Shown here piece by piece: positions 45,809 to 50,353 of a stretch of DNA of 64,000 nucleotides (the stretch's first letter is position 1; each line of letters begins with the position of its first letter). A program made the translations under genes and the position numbers. The notes below the pieces were generated by a model that searched no databases, was not told where the DNA came from, and saw nothing but the letters and a program-made list of their open reading frames with translations. The stretch lies in contig NZ_PIGG01000064.1 in assembly GCF_002924445.1 (NCBI RefSeq), forward strand, positions 62,001 through 126,000, given 5' to 3'. The stretch is from Minwuia thermotolerans (GTDB lineage: Bacteria > Pseudomonadota > Alphaproteobacteria > Minwuiales > Minwuiaceae).

Positions 45809-47149
45809 TCAGACGCGGCCCATCCGGATCGTGACCCGGAGGCCCCCCAGCGGCGAGGGCGTCAGTTCCAGCGAGCCGCCATAGCTCTGCACGATGTCCT
45901 GGGCCAGGGTCAGACCCAGCCCCGTCAGTCCCGGCGCGCCGTCGAGGCTCTGGCCGCGCGACAGCGCCTGGCGGACCTGTGCGGGCTTGAGGCCCGGCCC
46001 GTCGTCGTCGACCTGGACGACGTCCCCGGTCCCGTTGGCGAAGGCGCTGACGTGGATCGAGCGCTCGGCGTGGCGCGCGGCGTTGTCCAGCAGGTTGCCC
46101 AGAACGTCGTAGAGATCGGCCTCCTCGAGCGGCAGGCGGAAGGCGTCCGGAGCGGAAATTTCCAGCGCGACACCGGCTTCGTCGAGCCGGGGACCCAGTA
46201 CCCGCGCGATCCCGTCGAGCACCGGGCCGACCTCGGTGGCGGCGTTGCGGTGGGCGCCCCCGGCGGACCGGGCCAGGGCGAGGTGCAGGTTGACCTGCCG
46301 CAGCGCCTGGTCGGCCTGGGTCCGGACCAGTTCGGACGGCACCCGGTCGTCGCTCTCGGCGGCCTGGATCATCACGGCCAGCGGGGTCTTCAGCGAATGG
46401 GCCAGTCCCGCCGCCTGGTCGCGCGCGCGTGCGAGAAGCCGGTTCTGCGCCGCCTTGAGGGCGTTGACCTCCTGCGCCGCGGGGGCGATCTCGGCCGGCA
46501 CTTCCTCGCTCAGCTCCTCGCGCTCCCCATTGCGCAGCGCCTTGATTTCGCCGGCGAAGCGCCGCATCGAGCGCAGGCTCATGAAGCCCAGCACCGAGAC
46601 CGCGAGCACCGCAAGCACACCCTCGGCGATCATGGCGCCGGTGGCGAGACGGGTCATCAGCCGGCCGATCCGGTCGTAGTCGGCGGTGTCGGTGGCCACC
46701 TGCACCAGAAAGTCACCCTCGGGCCGGCTCACACGGCCGATCCAGATCCTGAGGCGCTGGTCCAGCGGGCCGGTGGCGAAGCCGAAGCCCGACGCTCCGT
46801 CGGGTACCGCTGCCGCAGGCAGCGCGGTGTCCCACAAGGAACGCGAGCGCAGCGGCTCACCGTCGCCGGCGAGCGGGCGCACCTGCCAGTAGGCGCCAGA
46901 GAAGATCTCGGCGAACTGGGGTGGACCGATACTCTCGCCCGCTCGGATGGCGGCGAGATCCTGCTCGCGCAGATCGTGGACGATGTGATCGGCGAGACGG
47001 CCGAGTTCCCGGTCCCTGAGGCCGTCCAGTTCCCGTTCCAGCAGACGGGCGCCGATCCAGGCCGACACCGCGGTGACCAGCAGCACCCCGGCGACCGAAA
47101 GCAGGATCATGCGCCGGGTGAGGGACGGCCGGCGGGCCGCTGCCGTCAT
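45809..47149 (-). CDS. PhoQ-like sensor histidine kinase
   Basis: A 446-residue membrane kinase. There are two transmembrane helices (about 14-35 and 172-192) around a 135-residue periplasmic sensor, a HAMP-like stretch (AGEIKALRNGEREELSEEVPAEIAPAAQEVNAL), an H-box AGLAHSLKTPLAVMI of the PhoQ type, N-box LLDNAARHA, G1 VDDDGPGLKP and G2 GLTGLGLTLAQDIV. It overlaps the regulator gene by ATGA. It is probably triggered by an envelope or cation signal, as the PepSY genes upstream suggest, but the ligand is unknown. Confidence 0.9.
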   Translation of the reverse strand: MTAAARRPSLTRRMILLSVAGVLLVTAVSAWIGARLLERELDGLRDRELGRLADHIVHDLREQDLAAIRAGESIGPPQFAEIFSGAYWQVRPLAGDGEPLRSRSLWDTALPAAAVPDGASGFGFATGPLDQRLRIWIGRVSRPEGDFLVQVATDTADYDRIGRLMTRLATGAMIAEGVLAVLAVSVLGFMSLRSMRRFAGEIKALRNGEREELSEEVPAEIAPAAQEVNALKAAQNRLLARARDQAAGLAHSLKTPLAVMIQAAESDDRVPSELVRTQADQALRQVNLHLALARSAGGAHRNAATEVGPVLDGIARVLGPRLDEAGVALEISAPDAFRLPLEEADLYDVLGNLLDNAARHAERSIHVSAFANGTGDVVQVDDDGPGLKPAQVRQALSRGQSLDGAPGLTGLGLTLAQDIVQSYGGSLELTPSPLGGLRVTIRMGRV

Positions 47150-47820
47150 TCGGCCGGTCCGGGATCGGGGCGGAAGGAATATCCCAGGCCGCGGATGGTC
47201 TCGATCCAGTGACGGCCGATCTTGCGCCGGATGCGGCTGATCAGGACCTCGGCGCCGTTGGAGGTTGTCTCCGAGTTCTCGTCCTGGACGTGATCGATGA
47301 TCTGCGACTGGGACATGACGCGTCCGGCATTGTGGGCCAGGTAGCTCAGGATCTTGTATTCCTGACCGGTCAGCCGGACGTCCTGGCCACCGATGAAGAC
47401 GCGTTGTGCGGTGGTGTCGATCTCGAGGTCGCCGAAGGTGAGGACGGAAACGCCCTTGCCGGCGGCGCGGCGGATTTGCGCGCGGATCCGCGCCAGCAGT
47501 TCTTCCTGATGGAACGGCTTGGTGACGTAGTCGTCGGCCCCGGCGTCCATGCCGGCTACCTTCTCGCGCCAGCCGTCCCGCGCGGTCAGCAGCAACACCG
47601 GCGTCGTCACCCCCTTCCGCCGCCAGTTCTTCAGCAGGCTGACGCCGTCCAGGCCAGGCAGGTTCACGTCCAGCAGCACCAGGTCATAGGGCGCGACATC
47701 CATGCGGATATCGGCCTCGTCGGCGTCTTCGGCGGTATCGACGGCATAGGCGACGCGCTGCAGGGTCGACTTCAGCCCCTCCCTGAGGGAGGCCTCGTCC
47801 TCGACGACAAGTATCCGCAT
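47146..47820 (-). CDS. PhoP-like OmpR-family response regulator
   Basis: A 224-residue regulator: MRILVVEDEASLREGLKSTLQ, phospho-acceptor in LVLLDVNLPGLDGVSLL, switch residues LLTARDGW and VTKPFHQEELLARI, and a winged helix (VRLTGQEYKILSYLAHNAGRVMSQSQIIDHVQ...NGAEVLISRIRRKIGRHWIETIRGLGYSF) of the PhoP/QseB kind. It lies in an operon with two PepSY-type genes upstream and its kinase downstream. The 11-bp repeat array before the operon is a likely autoregulatory site. Confidence 0.92.
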   Translation of the reverse strand: MRILVVEDEASLREGLKSTLQRVAYAVDTAEDADEADIRMDVAPYDLVLLDVNLPGLDGVSLLKNWRRKGVTTPVLLLTARDGWREKVAGMDAGADDYVTKPFHQEELLARIRAQIRRAAGKGVSVLTFGDLEIDTTAQRVFIGGQDVRLTGQEYKILSYLAHNAGRVMSQSQIIDHVQDENSETTSNGAEVLISRIRRKIGRHWIETIRGLGYSFRPDPGPAE

Positions 47821-47824
47821 GGTC

Positions 47825-48187
47825 CTACCTTCCCTGGCTCACACGTCCGGTCCGGGCGTCGGCGATCAGCCGTTGCAGCCGGCCGTCCGGATAGCGCCAC
47901 ATGATGACATAGCGGCCGTCCGCGTACTGGATCTGCTCGGCCTGCCCGCCCTCGCTCTGCTGGATGCGCCGGAGTATCTGAGACAGCGGCAGTTCGTCCG
48001 CCTTCCGCCGGCCGTTCTCGGCGCGCCGCTCCCAGGGGTTGCCGCCGCCGCGCCGTTCGGGCTCGGCGAAGCGCTCCGCGAACCCCCGTGCGGGCGAATG
48101 GCGGCCGTCGTCAGGCTTCGCGAACCCGGTCCCGCCCGCCGCGAGGGCGGCGAGCAAGGCCAGCGCGAATGTGAGACTGCGGTGCAA
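47825..48187 (-). CDS. Exported single-PepSY-domain protein
   Basis: A 120-residue protein from TTG 48187 (AGAGAGG about 6 bases upstream). It has a signal peptide MHRSLTFALALLAALAAGGTGFA, a basic linker, and a C-terminal PepSY-like module (LPLSQILRRIQQSEGGQAEQIQYADGRYVIMWRYPDGRLQRLIADARTGRV). PepSY proteins in such operons are thought to modulate a kinase or protease in the periplasm. Only 4 bases separate it from the regulator gene. Confidence 0.82.
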   Translation of the reverse strand: MHRSLTFALALLAALAAGGTGFAKPDDGRHSPARGFAERFAEPERRGGGNPWERRAENGRRKADELPLSQILRRIQQSEGGQAEQIQYADGRYVIMWRYPDGRLQRLIADARTGRVSQGR

Positions 48188-48205: not shown

Positions 48206-48919
48206 TCAGGGTCCGACGTCGCGCGGATTCTCGCGGCGGCGTTCGTCGCCTCGCCGCCGGTCGTCGTCATCGTCGCTGTTCCGGACGATAATATCCAGTC
48301 CGCCCCTGCGCCTTTCAAGGTGGTCGGCGTCCCGGTCCCGGTGGCCGAAGCGGGAGCCATGAGGCCCGCGGGCGTAGTCGACATCCTCGATGCGGCCCGT
48401 GAAGCGGTCGACCTTGACCGTGACGGGGCCGTGCGCTCGGCTGAAGCCCCGGACCTCGTAGACGCGGCCGCGCGGCGCGATGGCGTTGACCCGCATGGGC
48501 AGCCGGGCGGTGGCGATGTCGGCGGCGCGCCCGGCCGAGATACCCCGGTGGCGACGTGCCCGGCGGTCGTGGCCGAAGTCGACGTCGATGATCTTGCCTG
48601 TGAAGCGGTGCACCGACACGGAAACGGGACCCCGTCGGGTCATGCCGTGAACGACGAAGGCGCGGCCGGTGCGGTCGACGGAGCGGACCCGCATCGGCAC
48701 GCGGGCGTTGGCGATGCGGACGGCGCGGCGCGGCGTGATCAGGCGGCGGTCGGTGCGGTCGTCGTGGCGCTCCAGACCCGGAATGCCGAGGCGGATTTCG
48801 AAGTCGACTTCCGCGGCCTCGGCCAGGGCCGGTACGGGAGGGGGCTGCGATGGTGCGGCGGACGCGCCGCCGGCGAGGCCGAGACCCAGAAGGATCGCGA
48901 GGGACTTCAGCGGTTTCAT
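48206..48919 (-). CDS. Exported protein with two PepSY-like repeats
   Basis: A 237-residue protein with a signal peptide (MKPLKSLAILLGLGLAGGASA). Two homologous segments of about 57 residues are visible: ITPRRAVRIANARVPMRVRSVDRTGR...VHRFTGKIIDVDFG and ISAGRAADIATARLPMRVNAIAPRGR...VDRFTGRIEDVDYA. Each ends in the strand pattern of PepSY modules. The tail is highly charged (NSDDDDDRRRGDERRREN), which could bind cations. It opens the four-gene leftward operon, with AAGGAG 8 bases before the ATG. Its role in sensing is inferred. Confidence 0.72.
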   Translation of the reverse strand: MKPLKSLAILLGLGLAGGASAAPSQPPPVPALAEAAEVDFEIRLGIPGLERHDDRTDRRLITPRRAVRIANARVPMRVRSVDRTGRAFVVHGMTRRGPVSVSVHRFTGKIIDVDFGHDRRARRHRGISAGRAADIATARLPMRVNAIAPRGRVYEVRGFSRAHGPVTVKVDRFTGRIEDVDYARGPHGSRFGHRDRDADHLERRRGGLDIIVRNSDDDDDRRRGDERRRENPRDVGP

Positions 48920-48991
48920 GGCGAATTCTCCTTCTTCCCGTCTTGTCGGCAGGGAGAATGGCCATCGCGCCTGAACCCCCTTCCAACCGAC

Positions 48992-49020
48992 GGTTCATTC
49001 TCGGTTCAGACGGGGCTCAG
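48992..49020. promoter_or_regulatory. Three 11-bp direct repeats before the PepSY/TCS operon
   Basis: TTCAT (48994), TTCAG (49005) and CTCAG (49016) recur at exact 11-base steps; the first two are embedded in GGTTCA-TTCTC-GGTTCA. This is the 6+5 direct-repeat geometry of PhoP-type boxes. A further GGTTCA is on the opposite strand at 48972-48977. The array is about 75-100 bases before the first PepSY gene and about 130 before the divergent thiolase gene. Confidence 0.6.
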
Positions 49021-49147
49021 AACTCGGCCGACGGCTGGCTGCATGGCCGCCGTGCCCGCCGGCGCAAGGCGGGTTCCCTATTCGCTGCGGCCGATCTAGG
49101 TTTCGCAGCGAAACGTGATCCGAGACGGCAACCGGGAGGATATCGCC

Positions 49148-50353
49148 ATGGCCGAAGCTTTCGTCTGCGAGGCGGCGCGCACGCCGTTCGGCAGGTTCGG
49201 CGGGGCGCTGAAGTCGGTCCGGGCGGACGATCTGGCTGCGCATCCGATCGCGACGCTGGTGCAGCGGAATGCTGGCGTCGACTGGGAGGCGCTGGACGAC
49301 GTGATCTACGGCTGCGCCAATCAGGCCGGCGAGGACAACCGCAACGTGGCCCGCATGGCGCTGCTGCTGGCCGGACTGCCCCAGTCCGTGCCGGGCTCCA
49401 CGGTCAACCGGCTCTGCGGTTCCTCAATGGACGCCGTCGGCACCGCCGCCCGAGCCATCAAGGCCGGCGACGCCGGTTTCATGATCGCCGGCGGCGTCGA
49501 GAGCATGACCCGTGCGCCCTTCGTCATGGGCAAGGCGGAGACGGCCTTTTCGCGCTCGGCGGACATCTACGACACGACGATCGGCTGGCGCTTCGTCAAT
49601 CCGAAGATGAAGAAGCAGTTCGGCATCGATTCCATGCCGGAGACGGCCGAGAACGTCGCCGAGGAATTTCAGGTCAAGCGCAAGGACCAGGACGCCTTCG
49701 CCGCCCGCAGCCAGCAGCGCGCCGCGAAGGCGCAGAAGGATGGGATTTTCGCCGAGGAAATCGCGCCGGTCACGATCCCGCAGCGCAAGGGCGACGCCAT
49801 CGTTGTCGAGCATGACGAGCATATCCGCGGCGAAACCACGGTCGAGAGCCTGGCGAAACTGCCGACGCCGTTCCGCGAAGGCGGCACCGTCACCGCCGGC
49901 AACGCCTCCGGCGTCAATGACGGCGCCTGCGCCATGTTCGTGGCCAGCGAGGCGGCGGCGGCGAAGCACGGGCTGACGCCCCGGGCGCGCATCCTGGGCA
50001 TGGCGACCGCTGGCGTCGCGCCGCGGATCATGGGCATCGGTCCGGCCCCGGCGTCGCAGAAGGTGCTGGAGAAGGTCGGCCTGAGCATTGCCGACATGGA
50101 CGTGATAGAGCTGAACGAGGCCTTCGCCGCGCAGGCGCTGGCGGTGACGCGCCAGCTCGGCCTGCCCGACGACGCCGATCACGTGAATCCCCATGGCGGC
50201 GCCATTGCGCTGGGCCATCCGCTCGGCGCCTCCGGTTCGCGGCTGGTGCTGACCGCGGTGAATCAGCTTCACCGCACCGGCGGGCGTTACGCGCTCTGCA
50301 CCATGTGCATCGGCGTCGGCCAGGGCATCGCCGTGGTGCTGGAACGCGTGTGA
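49148..50353 (+). CDS. pcaF: Beta-ketoadipyl-CoA-type thiolase
   Basis: A 401-residue thiolase, the length typical of PcaF. The nucleophilic Cys is in VNRLCGSSMDAVGTAARAI, the His in NPHGGAIALGHPLGASGSRL, and the second Cys in ALCTMCIGVGQG. PcaF cleaves beta-ketoadipyl-CoA to succinyl-CoA and acetyl-CoA at the end of aromatic ring breakdown; an acetyl-CoA acetyltransferase of fatty-acid metabolism cannot be excluded because no other pca genes are nearby. I start at ATG 49148 behind GGGAGG; the frame from 49115 adds unsupported residues. Confidence 0.8.
   Translation: MAEAFVCEAARTPFGRFGGALKSVRADDLAAHPIATLVQRNAGVDWEALDDVIYGCANQAGEDNRNVARMALLLAGLPQSVPGSTVNRLCGSSMDAVGTAARAIKAGDAGFMIAGGVESMTRAPFVMGKAETAFSRSADIYDTTIGWRFVNPKMKKQFGIDSMPETAENVAEEFQVKRKDQDAFAARSQQRAAKAQKDGIFAEEIAPVTIPQRKGDAIVVEHDEHIRGETTVESLAKLPTPFREGGTVTAGNASGVNDGACAMFVASEAAAAKHGLTPRARILGMATAGVAPRIMGIGPAPASQKVLEKVGLSIADMDVIELNEAFAAQALAVTRQLGLPDDADHVNPHGGAIALGHPLGASGSRLVLTAVNQLHRTGGRYALCTMCIGVGQGIAVVLERV

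Follow-up and report, generated by a model that had tools for sequence, protein, structure and literature searches.

Two facing TTCA-type tandem pairs as a candidate operator of a PepSY-linked two-component operon in Minwuia thermotolerans

Results and discussion

We analysed a window of 64,000 nucleotides from the 4.9-Mb draft genome of Minwuia thermotolerans (contig NZ_PIGG01000064.1), in which 228 bp separate the ATG of a leftward operon (48919) from the ATG of the rightward thiolase gene pcaF (49148). The operon encodes two PepSY-like proteins, an OmpR-family response regulator, which is presumed to bind the site described here, and a sensor histidine kinase (Table 1). The two PepSY-like genes lie beside the genes for regulator and kinase, as in DbfQRS-like modules; their assignment remains below the Pfam cut-offs and is backed only by a fold of low confidence. 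For the first protein, the predicted model (mean pLDDT 54.6, two sequences aligned) comprises two helix-plus-four-strand units, and three Foldseek matches were obtained at E < 0.001, all with low TM-scores: a putative lipoprotein of Clostridium difficile (4exr) and two YpmB entries.

The original prediction had described three words at exact 11-bp steps in the intergenic region, two of them forming GGTTCA-N5-GGTTCA, with a further GGTTCA on the opposite strand. All of these are real: the words start at 48992, 49003 and 49014 of the plus strand, the first two being exact, and the minus-strand copy is found at 48977-48972. The picture of a three-word array holds for the repeat as such and fails for its third word, which reads CGCTCG in G006, the closest congener. 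As it is not conserved there, we dropped GGCTCA as a half-site, and it probably lies outside the site. Conversely, a half-site missing from the earlier description, GGTTGG, was found on the minus strand. Read towards the operon, the minus strand carries TGAACC (49008-49003), TGAACC (48997-48992), GGTTGG and GGTTCA in this order; the first two half-sites are 11 bp apart, the last two likewise, which gives two pairs that share one 11-bp register and are oriented towards one another. The pair facing the operon reads GGTTGG-N5-GGTTCA, and both perfect plus-strand words, which contain TTCA-N7-TTCA (48994-49008), point away from the operon. The array precedes an operon of PepSY-like modulator gene, OmpR-family regulator and kinase, the arrangement expected of a FeuP-type operator.

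As a separate observation, the pcaF start is preceded at 33 bp by an inverted repeat, GTTTCGC-A-GCGAAAC (49100-49114, 7-bp arms), which is partly changed in G006 and is a possible operator of pcaF.

Table 1 Features of the operon, the divergent gene and the intergenic array (window coordinates).
Feature	Position	Strand	Remarks
Sensor histidine kinase gene	45809..47149	-	HATPase_c; H-box LAHSLKTPL
OmpR-family response regulator gene, presumed binder	47146..47820	-	PF00072 and PF00486; best PDB sequence match BasR
Second, small PepSY-like gene	47825..48187	-	PF13670, 18.1 bits, E 0.0027 (cut-off 24.3 not reached)
First gene of the operon, for a probably secreted tandem PepSY-like protein	48206..48919	-	PF03413, 19.9 bits (cut-off 24 not reached)
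Shine-Dalgarno-like AAGGAGA	48933-48927	-	precedes operon ATG
Putative -10-like CATTCT of the operon	48960-48955	-	11 nt after operon-facing GGTTCA
Half-site GGTTCA	48977-48972	-	faces operon; putative -35 position; intact in G006
Degenerate half-site GGTTGG	48988-48983	-	11 bp upstream of operon-facing GGTTCA; unchanged in G006; putative role, from register only
Consensus tandem pair GGTTCA-N5-GGTTCA (TTCA-N7-TTCA)	48992-49008	+	faces thiolase gene; distal, inverted pair seen from operon
Word GGTTCA	48992-48997	+	exact, first of three at 11-bp steps
Word GGTTCA	49003-49008	+	exact, second of three at 11-bp steps
Word GGCTCA	49014-49019	+	weaker third word at 11-bp step; probably not functional
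pcaF, 3-oxoadipyl-CoA thiolase gene, divergent	49148..50353	+	NCBIfam TIGR02430, 720.2 bits (cut-off 597)

Regions upstream of related regulators were gathered from 13 regulator loci of 60 genomes (E up to 1e-60, window's genus excluded) and from 80 kinase loci of named genomes, i.e. 80 of 589 confirmed ones. Of these 93 loci, 92 contained a regulator (L108 did not) and in 90 the match began at residue 1 and no less than 300 bp of upstream sequence was available; the loci are related and some are near-duplicates (e.g. within Mesorhizobium, Methylocystis or Phreatobacter), so that all counts below are counts of non-independent events. The coding strand carries TTCA-N7-TTCA, i.e. TTCA at period 11, in 73 of the 90 regions, compared with at most eight regions for TTCA at each other period from 4 to 29 and five for period 11 on the reverse strand. 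When all 256 tetramers were ranked at period 11, TTCA came first, and the runner-up GTTC (37) overlaps it; a TTAAG pair was present in a single region. Positive loci include Rhizobium, Mesorhizobium, Bosea, Methylobacterium, Caulobacter, Sphingomonas and Hyphomonas, but also non-alphaproteobacteria such as Acidovorax, Hydrogenophaga, Marinobacter and Halomonas. The exact repeat was absent from 17 regions, among them both Stenotrophomonas loci, with a one-mismatch version somewhere in the region in six of the 17, and in a few positives the repeat lies at least 600 bp away from the regulator. The proposal of an autoregulatory site, which hinged on the repeat being present in relatives that keep the operon, survived this search and probably holds, the array being a predicted binding site of the operon's own regulator.

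Flanks sufficient for alignment were available for 72 of the 73 positives. In these operators, counting from the initial T of the upstream half-site, a TA follows after 27-28 bases (T 71%, A 92%), a fixed distance that fits a second half-site overlapping the -35 element. The window's regulator is 41-54% identical to those of the relatives (48-50% for one Rhizobium and three Mesorhizobium loci) and differs from them in the recognition-helix stretch, SNGAEVLISRIRRKIG in the window versus SNTIEVFVGRLRKKLG in the relatives. By eye, the relatives' regulators are preceded by small PepSY-like open reading frames, and PF03413 was matched by all four that were scanned, in three cases with a score short of the cut-off.

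When the first ATG was sought from 18 nt onwards, it followed the second TTCA by 23-26 nt in 52 of the 72 aligned promoters, e.g. in L012, L013, L037 and L063, which would place the start codon at the transcription start; the mRNAs of these PepSY genes are possibly leaderless. The window's operon is unlike those promoters in having a leader and a Shine-Dalgarno-like sequence.

The facing arrangement recurs among the relatives as well. Inverted TGAA half-sites (up to one mismatch) in register at -22 or -11 were detected at least once in 35 of the 72 operators and at both positions in 19, while six shifted offset pairs taken as control gave both in none or one of the 72. The window layout thus reads as the relatives' composite operator with one half-site degenerate. 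No description of such a facing-pair layout was found in the literature searched, which comprised partial texts and is no proof of absence.

Within the genus, G006 alone among six congeners yielded matches to the first and second genes of the operon (E up to 0.001 each) and to the regulator (E up to 1e-60), and among nine genomes searched in the order only one other carries the window's version of the operon. G006 has kept all three GGTTCA words and GGTTGG unchanged; this conservation has little power, the two genomes being very close. The five congeners without the operon retain pcaF with 85-86% protein identity, and the 330 bp before it held no TTCA/TGAA pair at period 11 in any of the five, with single GGTTCA-type words in two of them. 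The array therefore does not appear to travel with the thiolase gene.

Only in the window's genome and G006 does pcaF stand beside the two-component operon. In the other five congeners (L115-L119) it adjoins other genes, which by eye look kynureninase-like or tryptophan 2,3-dioxygenase-like in four; the upstream gene in three of the five is presumably a kynureninase.

Repeat, register, recurrence before relatives' regulators and absence where the operon is absent were all computed. From these we propose, at a probability of roughly three in four, that the array serves as operator for the FeuP/BqsR-type response regulator encoded in the operon and mediates positive autoregulation by means of the facing pairs; that the regulator binds, that it does so cooperatively, with which sign it acts and on which promoter are all inferred. 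A phosphorylated dimer of the OmpR-family regulator would read two TTCA half-sites about one turn of DNA (11 bp) apart. The consensus pair on the plus strand would face an operon-side pair of one degenerate and one perfect half-site, the latter occupying the putative -35, with the -10-like CATTCT 11 nt further on. Binding to the strong pair would help to occupy the weak one, and the occupied pairs would recruit RNA polymerase to the PepSY-PepSY-regulator-kinase operon.

Which of the two promoters is served was approached with a matrix built from the 72 aligned operators, a training set chosen for the exact pair. The pcaF-facing reading reached the best full-matrix score of both directions, 22.8 (training 10th percentile 20.8, median 29.6), against 4.2 for the operon-facing one. 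The core of the plus-strand consensus pair scored 21.6 (training median 23.1) and that of the operon-facing pair -2.2 (minimum of the exact-pair training set 16.4), the distal part of the latter being good (10.9). These scores suit an alternative that we regard as unlikely, namely that the site mainly controls pcaF, with the regulator activating or blocking this gene from the strong plus-strand pair and the operon using another promoter. Against it stand a poor -10 at the canonical distance on the pcaF side (-2.3; training 10th percentile 0.8), the pcaF start some 140 bp away, the missing array before pcaF in all five operon-less congeners and the box upstream of related regulators in most relatives. 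On the operon side, CATTCT with its 11-nt spacing scored 1.0, close to the 95th percentile of the intergenic null, and with the 12 nt usual in relatives -5.7; the same shift in spacing is seen at the promoter of an RcnB-domain gene described below (-5.6 at 12 nt, 2.1 at 11 nt). Given the conservation, autoregulation is the most likely and best reading. Several results count against it: the strong pair faces outward, the operon-side pair scores poorly, regulator-less congeners give matches of similar score, the exact pattern is not enriched in the own genome, 17 of the 90 regions have no exact repeat, the regulator and its recognition helix differ from those of the relatives, and just one other genome of those searched in the order has this version.

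Genome-wide scans employed R1, a sequence-only model of the 72 relatives' operators, in which the window's genus is not included. With R1, the array was the best match of the window (48971-49014, 16.2 bits, E 3.9e-4). In its whole genome, for which 150 of 1470 first-look candidates were scored, it took second place (E 0.029) behind the promoter of a gene for a small RcnB-domain (PF11776) protein; in G006, with 150 of about 1400 such candidates scored, these two sites again came out on top. The RcnB promoter site, a second one of the same kind, TTCATCCGCCATTCAG (L023:1501-1516, G000:C4:67277), is conserved in G006, the closest relative, so that both occurrences count as one event; searches of the other five congeners (E up to 1e-10) did not recover the RcnB-domain gene. 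In the control, the five congeners without the regulator gave best matches of 17.0, 16.5, 15.8, 15.5 and 11.8 bits, four of them (15.5-17.0) similar to the array. We therefore rejected the genome-wide score as sole proof: score alone does not discriminate, and the site is identified by position and conservation. Eight of 21 listed control-genome matches were inspected and all eight overlap open reading frames, as the window site also does in a mechanical listing. The motif search that had been suggested, productive among the relatives, showed no enrichment of TTCA-N7-TTCAG in the own genome (10 versus 6 for the backward control); three of the 10 matches are copies of one sequence, and by eye only the window site and the RcnB-domain gene site look like promoters. 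GTTCAT-N5-GTTCA occurred 22 times versus once for the backward control in seven genomes selected from 14 other regulator-bearing ones (G006 included), one of the seven, G007, having none.

In other genomes, motif sites were seen near genes that look secreted or envelope-related by eye (L121, L122, L123, L129, L135, L138, L139, L141), e.g. for an MlaC-like (L122) and a PspA-like protein (L123).

The comparable scores in regulator-less congeners, together with a G006 too close for strong footprinting, would suit a chance repeat or a decayed, unbound relic. To estimate chance, the 228-bp intergenic region was subjected to 5000 dinucleotide shuffles. An exact 6-mer direct repeat of any word at period 11 arose in 313 of them, so that the bare period is only mildly unusual, and GTTCA-N6-GTTCA with one mismatch is matched four times across the window, a count equalled or exceeded in 8 of 100 shuffles; such one-mismatch versions are no rarer than chance allows, and the array is the sole exact one of the four. 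TTCA-N7-TTCA on either strand, by contrast, arose in 10 of the 5000 intergenic shuffles and at least three GGTTCA words on either strand in none, while GGTTCA-N5-GGTTCA occurs once in the draft genome and its backward control not at all. As TTCA at period 11 is moreover the very motif found before the related regulators, we consider chance or decay improbable.

PhoP boxes carry the half-site word GTTTA at 11 bp, and the original proposal of a genuine PhoP box, recognised by a PhoP orthologue, is very improbable: the 11-bp tandem geometry is identical, PhoQ is the kinase's top NCBIfam model and PhoP the regulator's second best, yet the half-site is TTCA, GTTTA at period 11 was found on the coding strand in none of the 90 regions, and the scores are far below the curated cut-offs (regulator 192.5 versus 336 bits for PhoP, kinase 116.1 versus 497 for PhoQ; the PmrA cut-off is likewise not reached).

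The array is accordingly better described as a candidate FeuP/BqsR-type box than as a PhoP box. It is possible, though doubtful, that PepSY-linked regulators of Alphaproteobacteria widely use a composite operator of two face-to-face tandem pairs in one 11-bp register, bound by a four-subunit complex that may fire either way; in the window, such an operator would serve the divergent promoter region, and the two-component system would control its own operon and pcaF from one site.

With these results, a candidate motif published for a single rhizobium is tied to PepSY-regulator-kinase operons in many alphaproteobacterial and some other genomes, a tie by which the family's regulons would become predictable. 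The facing pairs, sharing one register, also offer a testable layout for a regulator controlling divergent genes.

Comparison with known systems

Enterobacterial PmrA and PhoP boxes likewise have a pair of half-sites with 11-bp period at the -35, and their half-site words differ from that of the window. FeuP belongs to the OmpR family, and FeuN is a small protein. The window resembles the FeuP system in motif and gene arrangement, the points on which the two were compared.

Published systems are compared here on the basis of excerpts of the respective papers. UzcR of Caulobacter, considered first, was set aside in view of its published motif CATTAC-N6-TTAA (PMC8963506). DbfQRS of Vibrio cholerae likewise unites genes for a PepSY protein, a regulator and a kinase behind a promoter that responds to its own regulator, and PepSY-regulator-kinase modules are widespread; it has one PepSY gene where the window has two, and no binding motif was found in the main text (PMC12714742). 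BqsR of Pseudomonas aeruginosa belongs to a two-component system with two PepSY genes upstream (PMC12714742), and its operator, TTAAG-N6-TTAAG, resembles the array in the 11-bp period, a downstream half-site overlapping the -35 and the clustering of half-sites (PMC4682146). The window shares this period but not the word, having TTCA instead of TTAA, and the BqsR clusters are repeated pentamers with 6-bp spacers rather than facing pairs; reversing the upstream pentamer lowers expression to background (PMC4682146).

Of six spellings of the motif, one was found in the searched literature, and only in work on Sinorhizobium meliloti, where TTCA-N7-TTCA (Motif 3) lies upstream of 12 genes, including five with known FeuP dependence, and was proposed as the candidate FeuP site (PMC3616915). 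Half-site and 11-bp period are the same as in the window, FeuP is likewise an alphaproteobacterial response regulator, and the modulator gene feuN is predicted to be cotranscribed with regulator and kinase (PMC3616915). In contrast to the FeuP site, the window has two PepSY-like genes and two facing pairs, of which the consensus one is directed away from the operon. A similar candidate site is thus already known from a soil bacterium, and the window is a new example of it with an unusual layout.
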